Assembly (NCBI RefSeq): GCF_040361275.1
Contig: NZ_APNH01000002.1
Location: forward strand, 186,001 to 250,000
From: Salinisphaera sp. T31B1
GTDB lineage: Bacteria > Pseudomonadota > Gammaproteobacteria > Nevskiales > Salinisphaeraceae
Length of the DNA stretch: 64,000 nucleotides
Reading direction: 5' to 3'
Shown: piece after piece, positions 48,470-62,477 of the stretch
Layout: each line of letters opens with the position of its first letter
Position numbering within the stretch: the first letter of the stretch is position 1
Made by a program: the position numbers and the translations under genes
The notes under the pieces: generated by a model
What the model was told of the DNA's origin: nothing
Databases searched by the model: none
Seen by the model: the letters and a program-made list of their open reading frames with translations, nothing else

Positions 48470-48545
48470 GGGTCGTTAGCTCAGTTGGTAGAGCAGTTGA
48501 CTTTTAATCAATTGGTCGCAGGTTCGAATCCTGCACGACCCACCA
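48470..48545 (+). tRNA. tRNA-Lys(UUU)
   Basis: 76-nt cloverleaf with acceptor GGGTCGT/ACGACCC, anticodon loop CTTTTAA (TTT), T-loop TTCGAAT and encoded ACCA. E. coli also has a tRNA-Lys gene (lysT) shortly after pal-cpoB, so the location is conserved. Confidence 0.98.
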
Positions 48546-49666
48546 TCTTTCCGCCCTGGCGCAGGTGCATCATGCAGGCGCATCGCGGTTTCGTTTAATG
48601 ATTCCGATATCGCTCGCCATCCGGCTTTTTATCACCGCGGCTTCGTTGACCGTTTGACTGCCCGGTCGCCTCGCTCGTATGTCTTTCCAGGCACCGACGC
48701 CGTACGCGGTGTCGCCCATGGCCAACGTGCCGCGACAATGGCTCCGGCCCAGGTGACTGTCTGCCTTCATCTGTGCCGGCGGTCAAGTACTCAAAGCTAT
48801 TATGGCGGCGCCCCGGGTGGCTCAGGTTGTTGGTTGAGTCACCTGTCCCAAACATGTCACCGAGTGACTTCTTCGCGTATCGAAAAAGCGGTTGCCGTGG
48901 CGGTGCAGTACCGATCGTTTCCGCTTGTAGCGTATCGTTGGACGACAGAGCGCATTACATCCCTCCGCCGCCATCCAGCCCTCGTAATCGGCGCCGGGTC
49001 TGCGTCAATATGCTTGCATCGCCTGCCATGGGCATACGCGTTCTAATCAGCGGAATCGCGCGCCTTGTTCTTAGCCCTGTCCATACGTCGACAGGCTCGG
49101 CCCACTGCTACGATCCCTGGCCCCCCGTACCGGGACAGCCGCGCGCAACCATCCCCTCATTCCCGCGTCCGATGGCCAGGCTGACGGCGGGCACTGCCTT
49201 GGCCCGCGTAGACGCCTTTGCGAGAAGAATCTGACGAATTCTTCGTAATTGTGCGGAATAGCGATGAGTCTGCACGGCAGCGTTGAGTTCGATCTATCAT
49301 AGACATCACAGGGGCTGAACGGGGCAGCATCGGGGGAATTCAACTAGATCGTTCGGGTCGACCTCAGCGGTTTCAATCACGAGAGTAAGTGAGCGAGCAT
49401 CGTGTGGTGATACAAGCTACGCGCGCTATCGCCACGATCCGCTAAGGGCGCGAGCCTAGGCCGTCGTCGCAAGCAAACGCGGACACATTCCAGTGTGTGC
49501 TGCTTCGAGACGACGTCAAACAGGCCGCCGCATAACGCCGACGCACGAATTTCTATATATCCGATGAACCGCCGCGCCGCGGCATGGCCACGCGTGGGTC
49601 CAGCATGCGCGCCGTCGCGCAGGCTATATGGGGTCGATACGATAGTTATCTCCGGCGTTGTTAATT
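48546..49666. other. Gene-free leader of about 1.1 kb before the autotransporter gene
   Basis: No frame here resembles a protein; the short ones are rich in Arg, Ser and Pro as expected of noncoding GC-rich DNA. I see no second copy of the tRNA-Lys 3' end that would mark an integrated element. Its right end has -10-like TATATG and TACGAT hexamers near 49625-49643, the best place for the autotransporter promoter. The rest may hold regulatory sites, a small RNA or decayed sequence, none of which I can identify. Confidence 0.4.
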
Positions 49667-52600
49667 ATGAAATTTTTCCAGTTGCCTCGGTTTTTCGTCT
49701 CACTCCCAGGCAGCATTTCCCGCCGTCCGATGCTCAGCGTCGTCTTGAGTGTCACAAGCCTTTCTTTCTGGCACGCGCCAGCGTTCGCACAAAGCATCTC
49801 GAGTTGTCCGGCGCCACTACAGAACGGCAAATGCACGATCTCGGAGAACGTGCAGAGCTCGCTGATTCTGCTGCGCTCCTATGGCGCCGACTACGCGGGC
49901 ACCAAGGATCGCCAGGGCGGCAATGGCGGCACGCTAGACATCGAGAATCACGCGAATGTGAGTTACTCCGGTAGCCAGAGCCAGGATTTTCTGGCCGCGG
50001 CGCTGTCTATTGGCGGACGATCCGATAAAGGCAATGGCAAGCACCCGGGCGGTAACGGCGGTACGGTCACATTCGTCAACTACGGCAATCTGACGTTCAC
50101 CGGCAGCACGACGAGCTATTCGCCGATCGGCAACTACGGTTACCAGGGCGTGTGGGACGATGCCGGCATCGTGTTCGGACTGTACGCCGCCAGCGAAGGC
50201 GCGGTCGGGCAGAAGGGTTCGAGCAGCATCTTCGATGACAACGACGAGCAGAACGGCGCCGACGGCGGCAACGGCGGCTCGATCGAACTGTTGCAGAACG
50301 ACGGCCACATACGCATCGAAACCGCGATGCCGAAGGGCGCGGTCGGCGTGTTCGCCAGCAGCGAAGGCGGTTCTGGCGGCGAGCAGGGTTGCAGCGGTTT
50401 CGATCCGTGCGGCGTGAGCGGCGACCAGAACGGCGGGCTCGGCGGTTCGACCGGGCCGATCAACATCGTCAACAACGGCAAGGTGGAACTCACCGGCACG
50501 GTGTCCAATATCTTCTGGGGCATCGGTGCCGAGAGCTATGGCGGCCATGGCGGCACCGAAGCCGCCGACGGCGGCACCGCCGGCGCGATCCAGATCGAGC
50601 ATCACGGCGACGGCGGGATTATTCTGCGATCGCAGAATCTCAACGAGGCGTCGTTCGACCACGGCGTCGCCGGCATCAAGGCCGTGGCGCGCGGCGGCCA
50701 CGGCTCCCAGTCGGACGACAACAGCGATCGCGGCGGCCGCGGCGGTGATCTGACCAGCGTCAAGGTCGTGGGCGCTCCCGAGGGCACACCGGAAGAGATC
50801 ATCGGCATACGCGCCGACAGCGATATCACCGTCTATGCCGAGGGCATCCGGCCTAAAGAGGCATCCGCCGTGCCGGGCAACAACTCGGACAAGAGCCTGC
50901 CCATCATCGATATCCTGGCCCAGTCCGGCGGTATCGTGGCGGTGGCGCGCGGTGGCGACGGCGGCAATTCCCCGGACAATCAGCAGGGCAAGACCTATGC
51001 CGGCGGCGCTGGCGATGAAGCGGTCGACGGCGCGCGCGTACATGTGACGACCGATTCCAACACGATTCTCACGAGCGGCGATTATCTGCACGGCATTTTT
51101 GCCGGCGCCCGCGGCGGCGACGGCGGTACCGGACGCGGCCAATCGGATGCCGGGGGTGGCTCCAACGCCGCCGCCGTACGCGTGGATGCACTGGCGAATT
51201 CGCGGATTCGCACTGATGGCCGAGAAGCGATCGGCATCGCCGCACTGAGCGTCGGTGGGCGCGGCGGCTATGTCGACCGCGACAGCGACGGCGCGATCGA
51301 TATCTTCTCGACGTCGGCTGGTTCGAGCGGTCGCGGCGGTACGGTGGGTGTGCGGGTCGAGGCCACCGACGGCGACGATTTCACGATCGCTACACGCGGG
51401 CGTAATTCCCACGCCATTCGTGCTCAGTCACTGGGCGGCACCGGCGGCGATGCCAACGGCAGTTTCCTGCTCGTCGGCGTGCCGGTCGAAGGCGGCGGCG
51501 GCGGTGACGGCGGACTGGTCGACGTCACCAACTACGGCGATCTGATGACCGACGGCAAATACGCCATGGGCGTCGTCGCCCAGTCGATCGGCGGCGGCGG
51601 CGGGGACGTGGGCGACTCCGAAGGCCTGATTTCAGTCGCCGGCAGCGCCGGCCAGGGTGGTTCGGCCAGCGCAGTCAACGTGCATCACGCGGGTCGTATC
51701 GTCACGCGCGGCGGCCTGGACCCGGACAAGATCGCCAACGATCCGGATGCCGACACCGCGAGCGGTGCGATCGGTATTCTGGCGCAGTCGATCGGCGGCG
51801 GTGGCGGCATCGGCGGCGGCCAGGATTCGGGGATCGTGAGCGTCGGCGGCGACGGCGGCGGGGGCGGAATCGGCGACGACGTGCTCATCGATTTCATCGG
51901 CGATTCGTCGATCGATACCTACGGCGACTTCGCCTTCGGCGTGGTCGCGCAGTCGATCGGCGGCGGTGGCGGCATCGGCGGCGACGCGTTCGCGACGGAC
52001 GTTCTGTTTCCGGCGCTCGCTGTCGGCGGCGGTGGTGCGGACGGCGGCTTTGGCCAGACCGCAACGATCCGCAACTACGACACATCAGGACAGGCGCATC
52101 ATCTGTCGGTGGCCACCAACGGCCAGAACGCACACGGCCTGATCGCGCAATCGCTGGGCGGCGGCGGCGGCAGCGGCGGTAACGCCTACGCGTTCGATCT
52201 GGGACTGGGCGCTTTTTCCCTGGCGACGGGCACCGGCGGCGCCGGCGGCGGTTCGCCGACGACCATCGCACTCGACGATTTTGCGATCACCACCGAGCGC
52301 GGCCATTCCAACGGCGTGCTCGCCCAGTCGATCGGCGGCAGTGGCGGAATTGGCGGTACGGCCGGCGGCTTCGATGCCAGCATTTATATCGCAACGGCAA
52401 TCAACGTCGGCGGTAGCGGCGGCGGGGGCGGTTCGGCCAGTACCGTATCCGTGGATCTGGCCAACGGCATGATCGAAACCGCACGCGGCGTCGCGACCGG
52501 CGGTCTGAACCCGAAAATCGTCACCGACAGCCACGGCATCGTCGCCCAATCGATTGGCGGTGGCGGCGGCGTGGGCGGTTCGGGCGCCGGTAAGTCGATC

Positions 52601-55600
52601 GTCAAGACGCTGACCATACCGTCTACGGGCGGCCTCAGCGCCGGTTTCGATGCCTCGTTCGATGTAGGCGGCGACGGCGCCAGCGGTGGCGACGGCAGCG
52701 CCGTCAAGGTCGATCTCGACCGTGTGGCGATCGCCACCCACGGTCAGGGCAGCCACGGCATCGTCGCCCAGTCGATCGGCGGCGGCGGCGGTCTGGGCGG
52801 CACGGCCTCGGCCAAGGGCGGGGCGATCGGCAGCGTCGTCCAGGCGGTCGAAGAGTTCGCCAAGAGCGTGACCACGCCGGGTAAGCTGGTATTCAATAAG
52901 GTCAAGGAGAACATCAGCCCCGAAGAGCTGGAGGCGATCCCTCACGACGAGGGCGACCCAGAAGACCATATGCTGGCCTTCGACGAAAACGGCGAGCCCG
53001 AGCTCGAGTTCGACGGCAACGGGCACGACGACTACGACGACTACCCGGAAATCATCGTCGAGCCGGATGATCCCATCGAGCCGTCGGAACCGGATGTGCC
53101 GCGCGAGCCGCCGGCGCCCGATACCCCGCAGGCCCAGCATTTTCTCACGCTCAACTTCAACGTCGCCATCGGCGGTGATGGTGGCGGCGGTGGCGGCGCT
53201 GGCCACGTTGGCGTAAATCTCGCCAATGGTTCGTCCATCGAAACCTTCGACGCAGTCAGCCACGGCTTGCTCATGCAATCGATCGCCCAGCGCGGCGGCT
53301 CGGCCGGTACAGGCAACGCCGGTGCGCTGAATATCGGTTCGGAATACGGCTATAACGCCACGTTATCGATCGGCGGCAAGGGCGGCCGTGCCGAAAAGCC
53401 GGCCGGTCAGTTGTTCCTGGACCTCGATGAGTCCAGCCGCATCACCACCCACGGCGACAAGTCCAACGGCGTGCTGGCTCAATCCATCGGCGGCGGGGGC
53501 GGCGAATCCCAGGGCACGGCACTCGGCGTCTACGGCACCATTCCGTTCATCGATATCACGCCGAGCGTGGATCTACAGATCGGTCGTACCGGCGCCACCG
53601 GCTCCGACGGCGGCACGATCGCACAGCTCAATCTCGACGGCGCGATCGATACCTACGGCGCAGACGCCGATGGCGTGTTCATTCAGAGCATCGGCGGCAG
53701 CGGCGGTGCCGGTGGTTCGTTCGGCGCAGAATCCGGTGAAGGTGGCCTCGTTCGGGAGCTGTTCGAACTGATCGAAGACTACGAAAGCTGGCTCGACTTC
53801 AGCGATACCGTCGGCGGTCGCGGCGGGGCCGGCGGCAACGGCGGCACGATCGGTGCTCAGCCCGATGCCGACGGCAAGTACACGGACAACAACGGCGACG
53901 GTATCGACGATGCCATGCGTTTTTCCGGCACTATCCACACCCGACGTGAATTCGCCGACGGCATGGTGTTGCAATCCATCGGCGGTGGCGGCGGTGTGGG
54001 TGGGGCCGGCGTGGCCCAGGGCTCGATCTCGATCATTCCGGCGTTCGCCTTTGGCGGCAACGGCGGTGCCTCCGGCGACGGCCATTCGATCAACTACGGT
54101 TTCGACGACGGCGCGATCCTGACCGAAGGCGCCTCCGCGTTCGGCGTGATCATGCAGAGCATCGGCGGCGGCGGCGGCTTCGGCGGCACGGCCTCGCGCA
54201 CCCGCTGCGGGCGTTTTTCGCTCGGCGGCGGCCTGGAATACAAGAATTTCGTCGCCGAGGCGAAAAAACGCCAGGCCGACATCGAAAACCGGCGCAAGGA
54301 CAATCCCTATGCGCTGCCCAGCGTCCTGTTCGACGACGATGCGTCCGACGATGAGCCGGAAACCGAAAGCGAACGCTGCTTTTTCGATCTCGACGGCCCG
54401 GGCGCGTTCGACGGCAACACCGGCTCTGCGGGCAACGGCGGTGCCATCCAGCCGCGCCGCGAAGGCGTGAGCGGCGGCATCGCGATTCAGACGAAAGGCG
54501 AGTTCAGTACGGCACTGCTGGCGCAATCCATCGGCGCCGGTGGTGGTGCCGCGATCACCACCGACAACAAGACTCTGGTGTACCCCGATTCAGTGCTCGT
54601 CGATACCGAGGCCGTGGACGACGAATCGCAGGATGTCGAGATCCCGGAGAATATCACCAAGCTCGACGTGGTGCTGGGCGGCGATCACGGATCGCACGGC
54701 GATGGCAACACGGTCACGCTGGACAACCAGTTTTCGATCGCCACCGCCGGCCGCGGCGCGGCCGGTATCGTCGCCCAGTCGATCGGCGGCGGCGGCGGGC
54801 TGGTGCAGACCGTGGGCGCGGCCGAGCTCGCCCTCGGTGCAGCCGATGCCTCCGGCCAAGGCGATACCGTGACGATCCGTGCGACAGACTCCATGCTTTT
54901 CACCGCCCAGGAGACCGGCTACGGCATCATCGGCCAGTCGATCGGCGGCGGTGGCGGCCTTTATATTGGCGAACTGGCCGCCCAGGGTCCGGATGGTGCC
55001 GATCTGAACCTGGCGACCGGCGGCAGCGCCGATGCGGCAGGCAACGGCGGCGCCGTGAGCTTCGAGTCGTATCGCTCCGCGAACGCACAAACGCCTGACT
55101 TTCGCACCGGCGGCGATCATGCCCGAGCGATCACGCTGCAGTCGATCGGCGGCGGTGGCGGCGTCATCGGCACCGTCAACGCATACGGTTTGGGGCCGGG
55201 CGTGCCGATCGGCCTGCAGATGGGCGGCGCCGGTAGTACCGGCAGCGGTGGCGCGGTATCGCTCTCGCCTGCGGGCCGGTACACGACGTTTGGCGACGGC
55301 GCCGATGCCATCGTGGCTCAGTCGATCGGCGGCGGCGGCGGTATTATCGATCTCGATCTACGCCAAGGCAGTGCCGGTGGCGCAGTCAAGCCGCTCAGGC
55401 TCGGCAATATCGCCTCCGGGAGCGAGAGCGCCAGCCTGGCCGGCGGGACGATCGATGCCACGTTCACCGGCAATTACGGCCTGAACACCGATATCACCAC
55501 CTACAGCGACCAGGCCTATGGCGTGCTGTTGCAATCGATCGGCGGAGGCGGCGGACTGTTCGACTATCTGGACGATCGTCGACTGGACCACGCGCGTCTG

Positions 55601-58306
55601 GGCGGCGCCTTGAACGGCGACCACAGCACGAGTGCTTCGAGCAAAATCCAGGTCAAGAACTTTCTGCACACCCTGACCACAGGCGGCGCCGACGCGCACG
55701 GTTTCGTGGCCCAGTCGATCAGCGGCGGGGGCGGTGTGCTCCGAAGCAATGCGGGCGCAGCGGGGCTTTCGCTCGGCCAGGATCGCGGTCTCGGGGCAGA
55801 TGCCGGCAGCGTCGACTTGACGCTGGGTGCGACCGGCACCGGGTTTCGCACGCTCGGCTTGCGCGCATTCGGCATCGTGGCGCAGTCGATTGGCGGCGGC
55901 GGCGGCATCGCCAGCGCGGGCGACGGCGATAATATCGACGCGCTGGCCCTGGGCAGCGCCGGTGGCTCGGTGGCGAACGCCAGCGAGGTGGATGTCACCT
56001 GGACGCAGGGTCTATTGCAGACCGTGGGCGCCGGTTCGCACGGCATCATCGCACAGTCGATCGGCGGCGGTGGCGGTATCGCCGGCAACGTGGCGTTCAC
56101 GTCCGGGCTTGATGCCAACGCGCTCAACGACACCTTTGGGCAGCCAGTGACCACGAGTGCGACCGGGGCTGGCGGTCCGGTGAACGTGAATGTGCGCGGC
56201 GGTGTCCAGGTGAGCGGCGATGGCGCGTTCGGCGTGATCGCCCAGTCGATTGGAGGCGGAGGTGGCCTGGCCGGTGTCAAGGACGGCGTATTTGCAGGCC
56301 GTACCTCGACCAGCAATGATGCATCGGCGCCAGTCACGGTGAGCGTTGCCGAAGGCGGCTATGTCAACGCGCTCGGTGCCAACGGATTCGGTGTGCTCGC
56401 CCAGAGTCTCGGTGGCCAGTCGGGATCGATCGACATCGATATCGACGGCTCGGTTTCCGGCGGTTTTTCGGCGGATGCCAGCGGCGCTCCGACGCGTTCT
56501 TCCGCCGCCCAGCTCGCCTTCGCGACGCCGGGCGCCGCATCACAATTGTCGCGCGCGGCCAGCGGCGGTGGCGTGCTGGTATCCGGTGGTAACCGCGACA
56601 ACCGCGTATCGGTAGCGACAACCGGCCGGCTGTCGTCTTTTGCCGGCAGTGCGGTCCGCTATATCGCCCAATCCGGTGACGGGACGGCGCGACTCAATGT
56701 TGCCAACCAAGGCGTGATCTCGGGCGATATCGAAGGCTATTTCGATGACGGCCGCTCGATAATAAACAGTGTGGACAGCGCGGACGGAGACCGCGTTGCC
56801 GCGGTGACGATCGACAACGGCCGGGACGGACGCCTGATCGGCGCGCGCCGCTATCTGGCTGACGTCGTCAATCGGGGCGAACTGGTCGTGGGCTCGCGAG
56901 ACGAGTTTCAAACGCTCGAAATCGCCGGCAATTTTTCGCAAGACGCGTCTGGTACGCTCAATCAGCGCGTGGATTTCGCCAATCGAGGCACCCAGCGGAT
57001 CACCGTGGCCGGCGATGCCACGTTGGACGGCACGCTGCGCATCAGCCCGATATCGGTGGTCAAGAACCGCGCGGTGGAACTACTCACGGTCGGCGGCACG
57101 CTCGGCGGCCGCTTCCAGCGCGTCCATTCCACCCTGTTCGATTTCGATCAGAGCATCGAGGGCGATGCCCTGAGTGTAGCCGCAGTGCGTTCCGATATCG
57201 CACAGCAGCGTTTCGGCTTGAGTGAGCACCAGGCAGAGGTGGCCGGCTATCTCGAACGTATTTTCGATAACGGCGATACGAGCTTTGCATCGGTTCTGGC
57301 AGCCGCCGATACGCTGGCCGACTTGTCGGCCGACGAGTTCGGAGAGCGGCTGCTGGAGCTTTCCCCCGGCGCGATCACGGCCGACGCTGCGGCCAACTTC
57401 GAGCTGTCGCGGCGCCGTCTGGACGATCTGTTCGGCTGTCGTGACACGATGACTCAGCGGCTTGCCGACGGTGGCTGCCTGGCCGCACGAGTCAGCGTGC
57501 AGGATCTTGATCAGGATTCGGATGCGCACGGTGTGGGCTACGACGCTCGGCTATACGGCGTATCGCTGGCGGTCAAGGACGTGCCCATCGCAGACAATGT
57601 CACGGCTGCAGCCGCCATTGGCTATGACAACAGCGATTTCGACGGCAATCGGGGCTATTCGCACTCCGAAGGCGACATCTTTCACGCGGCGGCCGCGCTG
57701 ACGCAGTATTGGCAGGGCTTTAGCCTGACAGGCGCGATCGGCACCAGCTACGGTTGGCATGACACCGAGCGCAGGATCGATTTTCTCGGTGAACGCCGCA
57801 CGGCCCGAGCCGACCACGAAACGTTCAGCCTCGGCGGGCGCGTGCGCGTTGCCTATGAACAACCGCTCGGCCAGAACTATGTCAAGCCTTTCGTGGACGT
57901 GGACGTCGTGCACAGCCAGGCGGATGGGTTTCGTGAACATGGCGCCGGCGAGCTCGATCTGCGGATTGCCGACAGTGATGAGACGGGTATCGGCATCACA
58001 CCATCGCTTGAACTCGGCACCCATCGTCGAATCGGTGAGACGATTGCGCTTACGGGTTATGTCTCCGGCGGCATCAGTTTGTCGTCGGTCGATGCCTACC
58101 GTACCGAAGCGACGTTTGCGCGGGCCAGCAACGCCAACGATGCGTTTGTTACTGCCGTGCCCATCGCCAATACGCTCGGCCGGGTGAGCGCCGGTCTCGA
58201 CGTGCGCAAACAAGACCGCGTGGGACTGGGACTCCGCTACGACGGTGCCTATGGAAGCGGGTTCGAAAGCCATGGCGGATCGGTACAGTTTTCGCTGTCT
58301 TTCTAA
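49667..58306 (+). CDS. Giant autotransporter (type V secretion) with AQSIGGGGG-repeat passenger
   Basis: 2,879-residue surface protein. A long signal sequence (basic and hydrophobic, cleavage probably after APAFA at about residue 41) targets the Sec pathway. The passenger (about 42-2480) has diverged Gly-rich units first, then about 24 copies of (A/L)QS(I/L)GGGGG spaced roughly 50-120 residues apart, each preceded by a G-(I/V)-(I/V/L) strand, as in a long beta-helix. An acidic, proline-rich insert interrupts it at about 1060-1160. A helical linker (about 2510-2605) leads to the C-terminal barrel domain (about 2625-2879), which ends in Phe (SVQFSLSF) as the BAM signal requires. The ATG at 49667 lacks a clear ribosome site; a TTG three codons upstream is in frame. 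It may be an adhesin or biofilm factor; function is not shown by sequence. Confidence 0.9.
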   Translation: MKFFQLPRFFVSLPGSISRRPMLSVVLSVTSLSFWHAPAFAQSISSCPAPLQNGKCTISENVQSSLILLRSYGADYAGTKDRQGGNGGTLDIENHANVSYSGSQSQDFLAAALSIGGRSDKGNGKHPGGNGGTVTFVNYGNLTFTGSTTSYSPIGNYGYQGVWDDAGIVFGLYAASEGAVGQKGSSSIFDDNDEQNGADGGNGGSIELLQNDGHIRIETAMPKGAVGVFASSEGGSGGEQGCSGFDPCGVSGDQNGGLGGSTGPINIVNNGKVELTGTVSNIFWGIGAESYGGHGGTEAADGGTAGAIQIEHHGDGGIILRSQNLNEASFDHGVAGIKAVARGGHGSQSDDNSDRGGRGGDLTSVKVVGAPEGTPEEIIGIRADSDITVYAEGIRPKEASAVPGNNSDKSLPIIDILAQSGGIVAVARGGDGGNSPDNQQGKTYAGGAGDEAVDGARVHVTTDSNTILTSGDYLHGIFAGARGGDGGTGRGQSDAGGGSNAAAVRVDALANSRIRTDGREAIGIAALSVGGRGGYVDRDSDGAIDIFSTSAGSSGRGGTVGVRVEATDGDDFTIATRGRNSHAIRAQSLGGTGGDANGSFLLVGVPVEGGGGGDGGLVDVTNYGDLMTDGKYAMGVVAQSIGGGGGDVGDSEGLISVAGSAGQGGSASAVNVHHAGRIVTRGGLDPDKIANDPDADTASGAIGILAQSIGGGGGIGGGQDSGIVSVGGDGGGGGIGDDVLIDFIGDSSIDTYGDFAFGVVAQSIGGGGGIGGDAFATDVLFPALAVGGGGADGGFGQTATIRNYDTSGQAHHLSVATNGQNAHGLIAQSLGGGGGSGGNAYAFDLGLGAFSLATGTGGAGGGSPTTIALDDFAITTERGHSNGVLAQSIGGSGGIGGTAGGFDASIYIATAINVGGSGGGGGSASTVSVDLANGMIETARGVATGGLNPKIVTDSHGIVAQSIGGGGGVGGSGAGKSIVKTLTIPSTGGLSAGFDASFDVGGDGASGGDGSAVKVDLDRVAIATHGQGSHGIVAQSIGGGGGLGGTASAKGGAIGSVVQAVEEFAKSVTTPGKLVFNKVKENISPEELEAIPHDEGDPEDHMLAFDENGEPELEFDGNGHDDYDDYPEIIVEPDDPIEPSEPDVPREPPAPDTPQAQHFLTLNFNVAIGGDGGGGGGAGHVGVNLANGSSIETFDAVSHGLLMQSIAQRGGSAGTGNAGALNIGSEYGYNATLSIGGKGGRAEKPAGQLFLDLDESSRITTHGDKSNGVLAQSIGGGGGESQGTALGVYGTIPFIDITPSVDLQIGRTGATGSDGGTIAQLNLDGAIDTYGADADGVFIQSIGGSGGAGGSFGAESGEGGLVRELFELIEDYESWLDFSDTVGGRGGAGGNGGTIGAQPDADGKYTDNNGDGIDDAMRFSGTIHTRREFADGMVLQSIGGGGGVGGAGVAQGSISIIPAFAFGGNGGASGDGHSINYGFDDGAILTEGASAFGVIMQSIGGGGGFGGTASRTRCGRFSLGGGLEYKNFVAEAKKRQADIENRRKDNPYALPSVLFDDDASDDEPETESERCFFDLDGPGAFDGNTGSAGNGGAIQPRREGVSGGIAIQTKGEFSTALLAQSIGAGGGAAITTDNKTLVYPDSVLVDTEAVDDESQDVEIPENITKLDVVLGGDHGSHGDGNTVTLDNQFSIATAGRGAAGIVAQSIGGGGGLVQTVGAAELALGAADASGQGDTVTIRATDSMLFTAQETGYGIIGQSIGGGGGLYIGELAAQGPDGADLNLATGGSADAAGNGGAVSFESYRSANAQTPDFRTGGDHARAITLQSIGGGGGVIGTVNAYGLGPGVPIGLQMGGAGSTGSGGAVSLSPAGRYTTFGDGADAIVAQSIGGGGGIIDLDLRQGSAGGAVKPLRLGNIASGSESASLAGGTIDATFTGNYGLNTDITTYSDQAYGVLLQSIGGGGGLFDYLDDRRLDHARLGGALNGDHSTSASSKIQVKNFLHTLTTGGADAHGFVAQSISGGGGVLRSNAGAAGLSLGQDRGLGADAGSVDLTLGATGTGFRTLGLRAFGIVAQSIGGGGGIASAGDGDNIDALALGSAGGSVANASEVDVTWTQGLLQTVGAGSHGIIAQSIGGGGGIAGNVAFTSGLDANALNDTFGQPVTTSATGAGGPVNVNVRGGVQVSGDGAFGVIAQSIGGGGGLAGVKDGVFAGRTSTSNDASAPVTVSVAEGGYVNALGANGFGVLAQSLGGQSGSIDIDIDGSVSGGFSADASGAPTRSSAAQLAFATPGAASQLSRAASGGGVLVSGGNRDNRVSVATTGRLSSFAGSAVRYIAQSGDGTARLNVANQGVISGDIEGYFDDGRSIINSVDSADGDRVAAVTIDNGRDGRLIGARRYLADVVNRGELVVGSRDEFQTLEIAGNFSQDASGTLNQRVDFANRGTQRITVAGDATLDGTLRISPISVVKNRAVELLTVGGTLGGRFQRVHSTLFDFDQSIEGDALSVAAVRSDIAQQRFGLSEHQAEVAGYLERIFDNGDTSFASVLAAADTLADLSADEFGERLLELSPGAITADAAANFELSRRRLDDLFGCRDTMTQRLADGGCLAARVSVQDLDQDSDAHGVGYDARLYGVSLAVKDVPIADNVTAAAAIGYDNSDFDGNRGYSHSEGDIFHAAAALTQYWQGFSLTGAIGTSYGWHDTERRIDFLGERRTARADHETFSLGGRVRVAYEQPLGQNYVKPFVDVDVVHSQADGFREHGAGELDLRIADSDETGIGITPSLELGTHRRIGETIALTGYVSGGISLSSVDAYRTEATFARASNANDAFVTAVPIANTLGRVSAGLDVRKQDRVGLGLRYDGAYGSGFESHGGSVQFSLSF
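51410..56417 (+). repeat. Array of AQSIGGGGG-coding repeats in the passenger
   Basis: About 24 in-frame copies of a short unit whose DNA reads close to CAGTCGATCGGCGGCGGCGG. Spacing is irregular at about 150-360 bases, with one larger gap around the acidic insert. Clear copies include AQSIGGGGGIGG, AQSIGGGGGVGG, AQSIGGGGGLGG and QSIGGGGGLFD; diverged ones read AQSLGGTGGD, QSIAQRGGS and AQSLGGQSGS. The near-identical bases could recombine and change copy number. Confidence 0.88.
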
Positions 58307-58385: not shown

Positions 58386-59465
58386 TCAGATACCCTGAGC
58401 GCCGCGCCTGAGCCAGTTGTGAACGAACGCCAGCTTGCGGTGCGTGGCTCCGGCGAGCAGGAACGGATAGAGATCCGGCAGGCCCATGGCACGATTGATG
58501 TGGTTGATGCCGATGGCGATCGACGCGCCGACATAGATCAAGCGTTCCGAATCGGTTTCCGCATAGGCGTTCCAGCTGGGCGAAGGCAATTCAGGCGACG
58601 ACAGACCGGTGGCGATAAAGCTATCGGTAATGTCGGTCAAATGGAGTAGGTGGGCAGTCGTTTCGGCCCAGTCTTCATGCGGATGGGCTGAGGCGTAGCT
58701 CGACAGATAGCGTTGCTGCCAGTCCTGGGGCGGCCCGTCGTGATAATGACGTTTGAGCGCATCGCCGTAGTTGTCTCTTTCGTCTCCGAACATCGCCCGA
58801 AACGCGTCCAGAAAATCCGAGCGGATGCTCAAACGCCACCAGAGCATATGGGCGATCTCGTGACGCATATGTCCGATCATCGTGCGATACGGCTCGCCCA
58901 ACGCCTTACGACGCTGGTTGCGAAGCACCGGGTCGGCCTCGGCAACGCTGATCGTGACGACGCCGTTGGCATGTCCCATCGGAGCCGGTGCGTCATACTC
59001 GGCGAGCAGGTGGAATACCGGGCGGGTGCCCGGGTCTTCCGGCCTAAACCAGTGCCAGCGCCCCAGGTTATCGAGAACCCAGCGTTTGGCGGTTTCCGTC
59101 TGTGCCCAATGCGTCAAAGCATCTGCGACAGATAGATCGGGCGTTATGGCAGTCATCGCGCAAGCGCGACACAGCTCGCCTTCTGCAGGCGCAATCCAGT
59201 TGCAGCCAATGCGCTCTCGGTTGGCACAAAAAGGCGGCATCGCGAGGAATGCTCTGGCCTGTGGGTCATACGCCACGGGGATGCCGGCGGCGGTGGTCAG
59301 GTTATCGAACCAGAGGGATCCGTCACCTACAGGATTACTGAATACTTGCATGAAGGTTTGGAACCGCCGTAGTGCAGCTGGAAGACGTCCACTGTCGAGG
59401 GCAATGTCTTCCTGCCGCGCACACGAATCAATCCGTAGAAATACATCGTCTGCGTATTGGTCCAT
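58386..59465 (-). CDS. Putative zinc-binding metallopeptidase (Peptidase_Mx-like)
   Basis: 359-residue protein. The C-terminal part holds HEIAH (in MRHEIAHMLWW) and a downstream glutamate in EDWAETTAH, within the family's YASAHPxEDWAETxAHxLH block, so a metzincin- or gluzincin-like zinc site is likely. Family members begin with a CxxCG..CxxCG zinc ribbon. Here the equivalent stretch VFSNPVGDGSLWFDN (about residues 39-53) has none of those cysteines, while the second cysteine set (PPFCAN, GCNW, CRAC) is kept. The ATG at 59465 has no clear ribosome site; the frame is open further to 59615. Physiological role unknown. Confidence 0.82.
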   Translation of the reverse strand: MDQYADDVFLRIDSCARQEDIALDSGRLPAALRRFQTFMQVFSNPVGDGSLWFDNLTTAAGIPVAYDPQARAFLAMPPFCANRERIGCNWIAPAEGELCRACAMTAITPDLSVADALTHWAQTETAKRWVLDNLGRWHWFRPEDPGTRPVFHLLAEYDAPAPMGHANGVVTISVAEADPVLRNQRRKALGEPYRTMIGHMRHEIAHMLWWRLSIRSDFLDAFRAMFGDERDNYGDALKRHYHDGPPQDWQQRYLSSYASAHPHEDWAETTAHLLHLTDITDSFIATGLSSPELPSPSWNAYAETDSERLIYVGASIAIGINHINRAMGLPDLYPFLLAGATHRKLAFVHNWLRRGAQGI

Positions 59466-59861
59466 CACGCGGTCGCGACGAAAAAACGCCGAGTGTCGGC
59501 TCAGGCAGAATGCTGCGGCGACTTGGCGCCGTCCGGGCCGACGATGCCGGAAACCAGCTCGGCCATAGGCCCGCGTGCCCGGGGGCTGACTATCGCTGCC
59601 CGCTCGGCCCGGCAACGAAAAGACAGACCCGCCGTTGTCTCATGCTGCGGATTGTGGCCGAAACCTACCGTATGGACGCATGCGCAAGCGACCGCTGGGA
59701 CGTGCCGGGTGTGCTTGCGCTGATCAACGCAAACCTAACGGATAAGCAACGAATGTCGGACCGCCCGGCTTTTACGCTGCGATCCGTGAATTGACCGGTC
59801 GCCGTGCGTGGTTTTCGAGTAAGACCGGCACGGGCACACGGAGGGCGATCCAGGAGACGAC
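59466..59861. other. Divergent gap between peptidase and glycosyltransferase genes
   Basis: 396 bases. A 50-codon frame from an ATG at 59642 has no recognised relative or ribosome site and is not called. The stretch must hold the promoters of both flanking genes, but I see no consensus pair of hexamers. Confidence 0.35.
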
Positions 59862-60596
59862 ATGGACAACCGGCCCGAGGTTTCGGTGGTGATTCCCTTC
59901 TGTAACGAACAGGACAACGTCGCACCGGTGTGCGCGGCGGTCGACCATGCGCTGGGCGGTGTTGCGCGCTACGAGCTCGTCGCGATCGACGACGGTTCCA
60001 CCGACGACACCGCCGGTGCGTTGGCGAGCGTCGCTCTTGAGTTCGGCGTGCTTCGAATACTCAAACTCGCGCAGAACCGCGGCCAGAGCACGGCCCTTGC
60101 CAACGGCATCCATGCGGCACGCGCACCGCTGATCGTGACACTCGACGGCGACGGGCAGAATCCGCCGGCAGACATGGTCCGATTACTCGATCACTATCGC
60201 AGTGAAGCCCTCGACGGACGCGCGGCGGTCGTCGGATGGCGCCGGCAGCGCGACGACAGTTGGCTTCGACGGCTGTCGTCACGCTGCGCCAATAGCGTAC
60301 GGGCCCGGGTGCTTGGCGATCGGTGTCCGGACACCGGCTGCGGTCTCAAGGTCTTCCGGCGCGAGGATTTCCTTGCGCTGCCGCGATTTCAGCATATGCA
60401 CCGTTTTTTGCCGGCACTTTTCGTGCGCGAGGGGGTACGTGTGATCAGCGTACCGGTCGCCCACCTACCGCGCCGATCCGGCCAGTCCAAATATGGGGTC
60501 CACAACCGGCTCTGGGTTGGTCTCGTGGATATGCTGTGCGTGTACTGGTTGATGCAGCGCCGCTGTCCTGTCGCATACGAGGCGATCGATGTTTAA
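59862..60596 (+). CDS. Family 2 glycosyltransferase, DPM1/ArnC-like
   Basis: 244-residue GT2 enzyme. The GT-A fold start VSVVIPFCNEQDNV is followed by the nucleotide-binding AIDDGSTDDT (about 41-50), the metal-binding region LDGDGQNPP, and DTGCGLKVFRR. These enzymes move a sugar from a nucleotide donor to polyprenyl phosphate; ArnC and FlmF-type relatives do so for lipid A modification. It lacks the two C-terminal membrane helices of ArnC. AGGAG lies 5 nt before the ATG. Its stop overlaps the next gene by 8 bases. Confidence 0.9.
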   Translation: MDNRPEVSVVIPFCNEQDNVAPVCAAVDHALGGVARYELVAIDDGSTDDTAGALASVALEFGVLRILKLAQNRGQSTALANGIHAARAPLIVTLDGDGQNPPADMVRLLDHYRSEALDGRAAVVGWRRQRDDSWLRRLSSRCANSVRARVLGDRCPDTGCGLKVFRREDFLALPRFQHMHRFLPALFVREGVRVISVPVAHLPRRSGQSKYGVHNRLWVGLVDMLCVYWLMQRRCPVAYEAIDV

Positions 60597-60888
60597 CGGT
60601 ACCCAAGGCACTCAAATGGCCTGGCTCGCTCTGGGACTGCTCGGCCAGGGGCTTTTTTCGGCACGCTTTCTCGTGCAGTGGGTGGCCAGCGAGCGGGCCC
60701 GACGCAGCCATATCCCGGTGGCGTTCTGGTATTTAAGTATCGTGGGCGGTCTGACTCTGCTGGCCTATGCGATCTATCGAGCGGACCCGGTGTTCATCCT
60801 GGGACAGAGTAGCGGGGTGTTCATCTATGCCCGCAATCTCTATCTGATTCGAAGGCGCGAACGCGAATCGTGGCAAGCGCGCTCGTGA
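60589..60888 (+). CDS. LAB_N-domain small membrane protein (lipid A biosynthesis N-terminal-like)
   Basis: 99-residue protein with three membrane helices and the LAB_N features LGLLGQGLFSARFLVQWVAS and SSGVFIYARNLYLI. Such proteins occur between DPM1-like and PMT-like glycosyltransferase genes and are thought to assist transfer or flipping of the lipid-linked sugar. Overlaps of 8 bases upstream and 4 bases downstream show tight coupling. Confidence 0.88.
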   Translation: MFNGTQGTQMAWLALGLLGQGLFSARFLVQWVASERARRSHIPVAFWYLSIVGGLTLLAYAIYRADPVFILGQSSGVFIYARNLYLIRRRERESWQARS

Positions 60889-62477
60889 GCGATACCGCGG
60901 GCTCCGGGCTGACTCCGCGCGTGGTATGGGCGTTCGCGTTGCTGGTGGTGTTGCTGGCTGCCGGCGCTGCGGGCCGGGGCATGAACGACATACCGCTGGA
61001 CAGTCATGAAATCTATGTCGCCCAGACCGCCGAGAACATGCTCGTTAGCGGCGACTGGCTGGTACCGCGTCTGAACGGCGAATATCGACTGACCAAGCCA
61101 CCCTTGAGTTACTGGCTGGTTGCGGGTACCGCGAGGCTGACCGGCCACACGCAGGTGGGCCCGGGCGTCGCCCGATTGCCTTCCCTGGCTGCCATGATCG
61201 GGATCGCGCTGCTCGTATTCTGGTTGGGACTGCGCTTGTTCGACGGACCGACGGCGGTTGTGGCAACACTGATGTGTGTCGGATCGCTGGCGAGCTTCAA
61301 ATACGGGCACAGTGCACGGCCCGATACCCTGTATGCGTTCTGGTCCACGGCGATACTGGCCGCCTGGGTGGGCGGACAACAGGCGAGGGTATCGCGCCAG
61401 GCCGCCTGGGCGTGGAGTCTCTGGGGGCTGTTCGCGCTGGCGAGCTTGACCAAGGGCCCGCAGGCGCCGGCGATTCTGCTCCTCGGCGTGCTGGTGCACG
61501 CCCTGGCCGCCGGCCAACGACCCCGACTGTTGCTGCGTCAACTGCGACCACTGCGGGGTATTGCGCTCGTTTTGCTGGTGACGCTGCCATGGTATCTGTT
61601 GCTTCGCCATGCCATCGGCAGCCAGACGCTGGCCGATTCGCAATTATCCGGTCAGCTCCTGACAATCGATCCGTGGCGTATTGTCACGCCGTTCTATCTG
61701 CTGCATGCGCCGATTCTCTGGCTGCCCTGGTCGTTGTTGTTACCGGCGGCGGTCATCGCCGCATGGCGTGACGCACGGGGCCCGGCCGGTCTATTGGCAG
61801 TCACTCTGATAGTGGCCATGCTGGCCTTCGCGCTCGGGCCTCAATATCGCGAGATCTACATGTTGCCCTGGCTCGCGCCGGCGATGCTGATGCTGGCCAA
61901 TGCGGTGATGCGAACGTCACGGACGTGGCTGGCGCTGGCAGTGATCGTCGTGGCGGCAGCGGCGGCGTTGGCCTGGCTTGCCTATCAATCCGGTGCCGCA
62001 GCGACAATCGCGATCCTGCCGGCTTCGCTGTTGCTCTTGGCGGCCATCGATGGCCTGCGACGCCGTCAGGCGCCGCGAGCCGCCGCGCTGGCGGCCGCCG
62101 CTATCGCGCTTGGACTGTATCAGGGCGGCGCAGTGCCTGCCTTGTGGAGCCCGAGACGGTATGCCGAGCGTGCATTCGTGCACACGCTGGCCAGACGTAT
62201 AGACTCGACCACGCCAATAATCGTCTGGGATTTCGATCCTGCCGTGTATTCCTACTATCTCGACCGGCCGGTGACCGGCAGCGAAGCATTGGCCAGGGTG
62301 TGTGACTGGATCGACCGTCGTTCCCGGGATCTTGTACTCGTGTATCCGTACAAGCGGCGTCAGGAACTGGCGCGCCGACTCGACGTCGTGCCGATGTGGC
62401 CCGATGCCCGATCGGAGTTCCAGGCCGCACACTTACCGCGCGGCACCACCTGTCACGAGACCCGTTCGCTCGACTGA
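60885..62477 (+). CDS. ArnT-like family 39 glycosyltransferase
   Basis: 530-residue polytopic membrane enzyme of the PMT/ArnT type, which moves a sugar from polyprenyl phosphate to a periplasmic acceptor such as lipid A. The first periplasmic loop has LDSHEIYVAQTAENML and YRLTKPPLSYWL, the acidic and KPP motifs of ArnT. About 12 helices follow and then a short periplasmic C-terminal domain. Start taken as the GTG whose TGA overlap (GTGA) couples it to the LAB_N gene; a GTG 15 bases earlier is also in frame. Acceptor and sugar unknown. Confidence 0.88.
   Translation: MSDTAGSGLTPRVVWAFALLVVLLAAGAAGRGMNDIPLDSHEIYVAQTAENMLVSGDWLVPRLNGEYRLTKPPLSYWLVAGTARLTGHTQVGPGVARLPSLAAMIGIALLVFWLGLRLFDGPTAVVATLMCVGSLASFKYGHSARPDTLYAFWSTAILAAWVGGQQARVSRQAAWAWSLWGLFALASLTKGPQAPAILLLGVLVHALAAGQRPRLLLRQLRPLRGIALVLLVTLPWYLLLRHAIGSQTLADSQLSGQLLTIDPWRIVTPFYLLHAPILWLPWSLLLPAAVIAAWRDARGPAGLLAVTLIVAMLAFALGPQYREIYMLPWLAPAMLMLANAVMRTSRTWLALAVIVVAAAAALAWLAYQSGAAATIAILPASLLLLAAIDGLRRRQAPRAAALAAAAIALGLYQGGAVPALWSPRRYAERAFVHTLARRIDSTTPIIVWDFDPAVYSYYLDRPVTGSEALARVCDWIDRRSRDLVLVYPYKRRQELARRLDVVPMWPDARSEFQAAHLPRGTTCHETRSLD

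Follow-up and report, generated by a model that had tools for sequence, protein, structure and literature searches.

The stretch of DNA considered here (the window) comprises 64,000 nucleotides of the genome of Salinisphaera sp. T31B1 (contig NZ_APNH01000002.1, positions 186,001 to 250,000), and its subject is a single 8.6-kb gene that encodes a giant autotransporter of 2,879 residues with a signal peptide, a passenger built largely of glycine-rich repeats and a C-terminal beta-barrel (Table 1). What is new is the architecture of the repeats, which belong to a widespread autotransporter family that lacks a domain model. The gene is an intact open reading frame (ORF) starting at ATG, with an alternative upstream TTG that would give 2,882 residues; long minus-strand ORFs within it are taken as by-products of high GC content. 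The putative Sec-type signal peptide, read from sequence only, displays a pair of arginines, a hydrophobic core and an apparent cleavage site with AFA before and QS after the cut, of which A41-Q42-S43 are the same in a paralog elsewhere in the genome. At the other end, PF03797 was matched at 124 bits in a search of the genome, which exposed one further autotransporter, and a search of solved structures by sequence returned EstA for the barrel region. The single ORF runs past PF03797 to a terminal phenylalanine at position 58303 (ending VQFSLSF). Passenger and barrel on one chain, the score over the cut-off, the aromatic last residue and the apparent signal peptide together indicate type Va secretion. 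Whole-protein Pfam and NCBIfam scans gave no match at all, barrel included; the glycine-rich composition is to blame, for the barrel scanned alone scores 123 bits.

Table 1. Features of the autotransporter gene and of the DNA upstream of it (positions within the window).
Feature	Position	Strand	Basis and remarks
tRNA-Lys(ttt)	48470..48545	+	Last congener-shared feature before the autotransporter gene
Upstream block that the paralog also has, about as far from its own start	49226..49303	+	blastn 38 bp, 82%, E 2e-4; alignment
Autotransporter gene	49667..58306	+	2,879 aa plus stop; intact ORF, colinear homologues and paralog, constrained codon differences
Putative Sec-type signal peptide, residues 1-41 (ending SISRRPMLSVVLSVTSLSFWHAPAFA, then QS)	49667..49789	+	Sequence reading; cleavage site inferred
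N-terminal passenger, residues 42-570	49790..51376	+	Alignment of 22 homologues; ~7 degenerate units (AxSxGGxGG class)
Core repeat array, residues 571-2260	51377..56446	+	23-24 units, mostly 52-75 aa: beta / GGGGGxGG / beta-hairpin / (GGX)n / beta
Acidic, Pro-rich insert, residues ~1060-1160, after motif copy 8	52844..53146	+	Present in paralog, largely absent from relatives
Insert with Cys pair (C1514/C1571), residues ~1511-1580	54197..54406	+	Present in paralog
C-terminal part of the passenger with a probably helical linker leading to the barrel, residues 2261-2604	56447..57478	+	Alignment
PF03797 autotransporter beta-domain	57485..58243	+	123 bits, E 2.2e-35 (cut-off 26)

The repeat motif is found 23 times between residues 587 and 2246 with the relaxed pattern Q[ST][ILVA][GAS][GA]x[GAS]G, and a divergent MQSIAQRGG at about residue 1203 brings the count to 24; the exact form (A/L)QS(I/L)GGGGG occurs 15 times and QSIGGGGG 16 times. 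Composition does not account for this: 20.3% of the residues are glycine, but QS[IL]GGxGG has 20 copies, while 2,000 shuffled versions of the protein contain 0.0035 on average and at most 1. Position -4 relative to the motif is glycine and position -3 isoleucine or valine, each in 19 of the 23 copies. The preliminary description of this DNA, which had reported one 8.6-kb gene for a type V-secreted protein with about 24 copies of an (A/L)QS(I/L)GGGGG motif, each preceded by a G-(I/V)-(V/I/L) strand, is borne out in these respects, with the class narrowed to a probable type Va. It did not mention the paralog, the second glycine segment carried by most units or the roughly seven degenerate units of residues 170-535.

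Each unit follows the layout beta / (GGX)3 / beta-hairpin / (GGX)2-4 / beta, or, residue by residue, an A-(H)-G-(I/V)-h-A-Q-S-(I/V) strand, GG(G)-GGx-GGx, a variable strand or hairpin, h-G-G-x triplets, V-x-V and x-I-x-T-x-G. This blueprint is common to 1,059 units in 53 proteins (Q in 100%, S in 98%); as the pattern used in the search demanded the Q, and the second glycine segment was likewise located by a pattern, evidence comes only from the remaining positions. Over these units the glycines are phased in triplets (position 5 variable, 6-7 G, 8 non-G, 9-10 G in 65-71%), and their autocorrelation peaks at lag 3. Units with more GGX triplets in one glycine segment tend to have more in the other as well (rho 0.28, reached in none of 1,000 within-protein permutations, with the shared ancestry of units between proteins left in), as would be expected if both segments lie side by side. 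Scanned up to E = 10 in pieces (eight for Pfam, six for NCBIfam), the passenger matched no relevant profile such as PATR, although the composition-bias filter may hide some matches, and none of the pieces contains a recognised enzyme domain. Searches of the repeats against solved structures by sequence returned chance matches only, and no paper found by literature search names the motif.

A regular repeat fold is predicted. The AlphaFold2 (AF2) model of residues 572-1062 (491 residues, 23 homologues) reached a predicted local distance difference test (pLDDT) score of 86 and a predicted template modelling (TM) score of 0.81, and a smaller four-unit model reached pLDDT 88. In all eight units of the larger model the motif occupies an equivalent place, with x-G-I-x-A-Q-S-I (positions -5 to +2) as strand and GGGGG (positions +3 to +7) as coil. 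Neither the PDB nor a set of viral models holds a Foldseek match to these models at E <= 0.001. The weak match that stands out is the antifreeze protein 7jjv, composed of nine polyproline-II (PPII) helices, which ranked first for the four-unit model and had the highest probability among the matches listed for the larger one (probability 0.25, TM 0.34 by target). GGX repeats are a known signature of glycine-rich PPII bundles (PMC13243192), and with the 7jjv match this favours a composite rod in which a web of polyglycine would lie between two beta edges.

The individuality of the units is evident from the paralog (G000:C1:175494-184088, minus strand; 2,885 residues from ATG), which is about 50% identical and colinear from end to end, and which also carries both inserts. 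Differences between the two genes at the three codon positions are 0.386, 0.303 and 0.542, a pattern that implies constraint on the protein. Every one of the 23 units scores higher against its best partner in the paralog than against any other part of its own protein (median best scores 120 versus 61), and the partners so assigned in the paralog ascend in 19 of 22 steps; the units therefore differentiated long ago and have kept their identity, which argues against recent amplification or surface diversification. Cysteines are retained as well, C47/C56 of the N-terminal passenger in both genome copies and C2591/C2604 of the pre-barrel region in the paralog and in Sinorhizobium meliloti. The opposite case is provided by a 5,133-residue relative (L018:3637-19038, G308:C57), an extreme single-chain autotransporter with 57 motif copies, nearly all about 65 residues apart and homogenised, whose median within-protein best score is 145.

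The window protein is a member of a colinear QSIGGGGG autotransporter family, described here. A scan of a collection of species genomes with a three-sequence alignment located relatives at 47 loci, up to 5,133 residues long, where a single-protein query in the same kind of scan located none. Their hosts are rhizobia (including S. meliloti, on pSymB), Albimonas, Marinibacterium, Roseomonas, Xanthobacter, Methylobacterium, Achromobacter, Luteibacter and Methylobacter, and with the close relatives in S. meliloti, Albimonas and Achromobacter colinearity extends over the full length, passenger units and barrel alike. Within the class to which the window genome belongs the AQSIGGGGG string occurs in only 3 of 369 sampled genomes, and 13 congeners revealed neither the protein, in a loose first look, nor any full-length PF03797 autotransporter. 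No phage homologue was found. In a tree of the last 470 residues the two window-genome copies group together (Shimodaira-Hasegawa-like approximate likelihood ratio test, SH-aLRT, 100), then with Albimonas and Marinibacterium (100), adjoining a rhizobial clade (96); TolB of the host is 45-48% identical to gammaproteobacterial and 31-33% to alphaproteobacterial TolB. From these positions we infer that the gene was probably acquired by an old horizontal transfer from Alphaproteobacteria and then duplicated, leaving this bacterium with two giant surface proteins; the host-like GC content and glycine codons fit an old event. Among other members of the family, Mesorhizobium sp. L-8-3 carries at least three (L100, L093 and L032, of 1,760-2,395 residues). 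At L017:3311-16027 (G093:C1) two motif-bearing frames of 969 and 3,235 residues follow each other across a gap of 99 bases, which looks like a single giant gene split by stop codons, either because the gene is broken or because of an assembly error.

The gene product is thus probably a surface-anchored, adhesin-like type Va rod of stacked repeat units, of alphaproteobacterial descent and present in duplicate. The Sec signal would direct the protein to the periplasm and the C-terminal barrel would insert in the outer membrane, from which the passenger, more than 2,200 residues long, would emerge and presumably remain attached as a long surface rod. This rod would be a stack of about 30 homologous units, each contributing one beta part with G-I-x-A-Q-S-I and a second that is a variable beta-hairpin; two extended GGX segments running side by side, probably as polyglycine/PPII strands, would connect them. 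Ladders of invariant Gln, Ser and Thr would run the length of the rod, and the exposed faces would be the variable hairpins in a fixed order. As to the finer detail, we tentatively propose an architecture absent from the PDB, namely a solenoid-like rod in which each turn alternates beta-strands with two paired polyglycine-II strands, to form two beta edges and a thin glycine web, with one barrel exporting chains that reach about 5,000 residues. Among large type Va autotransporters that stay anchored to the surface and have no enzyme domain, most are adhesins (PMC9289746), and with no enzyme domain in this passenger the likeliest job is adhesion or aggregation in cell-cell or biofilm contact, a suggestion for which the chances are evenly balanced.

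Several points weigh against this interpretation. Confident AF2 models arose in only three of five runs for the larger segment (pLDDT above 84) and one of five for the four-unit segment, and the 7jjv matches are weak (E 0.13 and 0.007, TM <= 0.34). Stacking and the polyglycine web are deduced from DSSP strings, sequence and those weak Foldseek matches, and the triplet correlation may owe something to common descent. The search of the congeners for the protein was a loose first look, host-like composition means that any transfer would have to be old, and adhesion is argued from analogy. The passenger could instead be a right-handed parallel beta-helix of the ordinary kind known from pertactin, UpaB and Fap2, with the glycine runs as long inter-rung loops and two to three rungs per unit. 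This would agree with most of the weak Foldseek matches, which are parallel beta-helices (autotransporters Fap2, Vag8, pertactin and EspP included), and with the mostly predicted beta-helical folds of characterised adhesin autotransporters (PMC9289746). None of these matches, however, reaches E <= 0.001, and they superimpose at TM about 0.1 (0.05-0.16) and a root-mean-square deviation of some 30 Å despite a confident model, while the glycine runs, being GGX-phased and the most conserved part of the unit, are unlike loops; such a helix is unlikely, if still to be reckoned with. The preliminary description had suggested a long regular beta-helix or beta-roll displaying varied surfaces. Its regularity survives, with the motif equivalent in all eight modelled units, but a standard beta-helix is not supported, and neither is an RTX beta-roll, of whose tandem GGxGxDxUx nonapeptides only two scattered matches occur in 2,879 residues. 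Its varied surfaces, if meant as diversification, run counter to the ordered orthology of the units. Phase or antigenic variation by repeat expansion and contraction is very improbable for the same reason: repeat number does differ among family members, and G308 has 57 homogenised units, but in the window protein and its paralog the order of units is conserved and no recent duplication was seen.

Two further readings concern the role of the passenger rather than its secretion. It might be released as a signal or effector that acts on a eukaryotic partner, like the rhizobial DCA1, and Mesorhizobium and Sinorhizobium proteins are indeed among its nearest relatives; yet the likeness to DCA1 is drawn from its published description, and the clade that contains the window protein also holds Albimonas and Marinibacterium. 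These two genera are not symbionts to our knowledge, and we know of no host association of the window genome, so that an effector role seems doubtful. The least probable reading, which we consider hardly credible, is an ice-binding or cold-protective surface protein on a PPII bundle. In the fold searches the springtail PPII-bundle antifreeze protein ranked first or had the highest probability, but its TM score is low, glycine composition and PPII geometry explain the likeness, and the relatives, including rhizobia and Achromobacter, are not cold specialists. The surface-anchored rod remains the preferred interpretation.

With regard to its setting, the gene sits at a genome-specific junction, since the YbgF-QueE-QueC-tRNA-Lys block is common to the two congeners examined (G007 and G011), synteny stops at tRNA-Lys, and the Peptidase_Mx gene of the right flank lies at other places in both. 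The region beyond tRNA-Lys may be a hotspot of rearrangement or insertion; the duplicate tRNA-Lys 3' end expected from an integrated element was not found within the window. Between tRNA-Lys and the gene lies 1.1 kb (48546-49666) of lower GC content (0.595) without a convincing gene. It includes a 38-bp block shared with the paralog, some 400-470 bp upstream of both starts, which is possibly a promoter or regulator site; a scan for sigma-70-like promoters returned none. Across the family loci no regulator or partner gene is conserved, the only recurrent neighbour being a histidine kinase/LytTR pair, a candidate regulator, that precedes the S. meliloti and Bosea homologues in divergent orientation (L019:2987-4908 and L037:3546-5317). 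Downstream, at 58386-62477, a Peptidase_Mx gene with a zinc ribbon (minus strand) is followed by GT2 and PMT-type glycosyltransferase genes (plus strand) that resemble a lipid A or glycan modification pair.

Among the closest known systems is the pSymB autotransporter of S. meliloti (WQP25485.1, 2,288 residues), annotated as 'autotransporter outer membrane beta-barrel domain-containing protein'. It shares the repeat and the barrel, is colinear over its full length and is 35% identical over the last 1,000 residues, but it is shorter, with 17 motif copies, lacks both inserts and has the histidine kinase/LytTR pair that is missing from the window locus. The Group 13 autotransporter adhesins (BmaC, XatA, AoaA; PMC9289746) are by description similar in being large, mostly surface-anchored type Va proteins, some of them alphaproteobacterial, and differ in being mostly predicted beta-helical. 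PPII-bundle antifreeze proteins (7jjv), PE_PGRS proteins and the phage S16 tail adhesin (PMC13243192) have the same GGX glycine triplets, but they are glycine bundles that lack the alternating beta units, are not autotransporters and align at TM <= 0.34 (7jjv). Should the paired polyglycine-II strands prove real, beta-solenoids and PPII bundles would be united in one repeat and the strict sequence rule explained, within a broad family of giant surface proteins (in rhizobia, marine Rhodobacterales and Achromobacter) whose passenger has no domain model and whose confidently predicted fold has no solved counterpart. By taxonomy the nearest functional lead is the DCA1 protein that Mesorhizobium loti TONO produces (Shimoda et al., 2020), which is reported to have a signal peptide, an autotransporter domain and 43 divergent glycine-rich repeats of 44-53 residues (PMC9037385). 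Its passenger reportedly affects how nodules function and is a substrate of APN1, a peptidase of the plant that cleaves it (PMC9037385; PMC12237847). As described, both proteins combine a signal peptide and an autotransporter domain with a long divergent glycine-rich array, of some 24-31 units of mostly 52-75 residues in the window protein, and the family may therefore offer a structural frame for DCA1-type symbiosis autotransporters.
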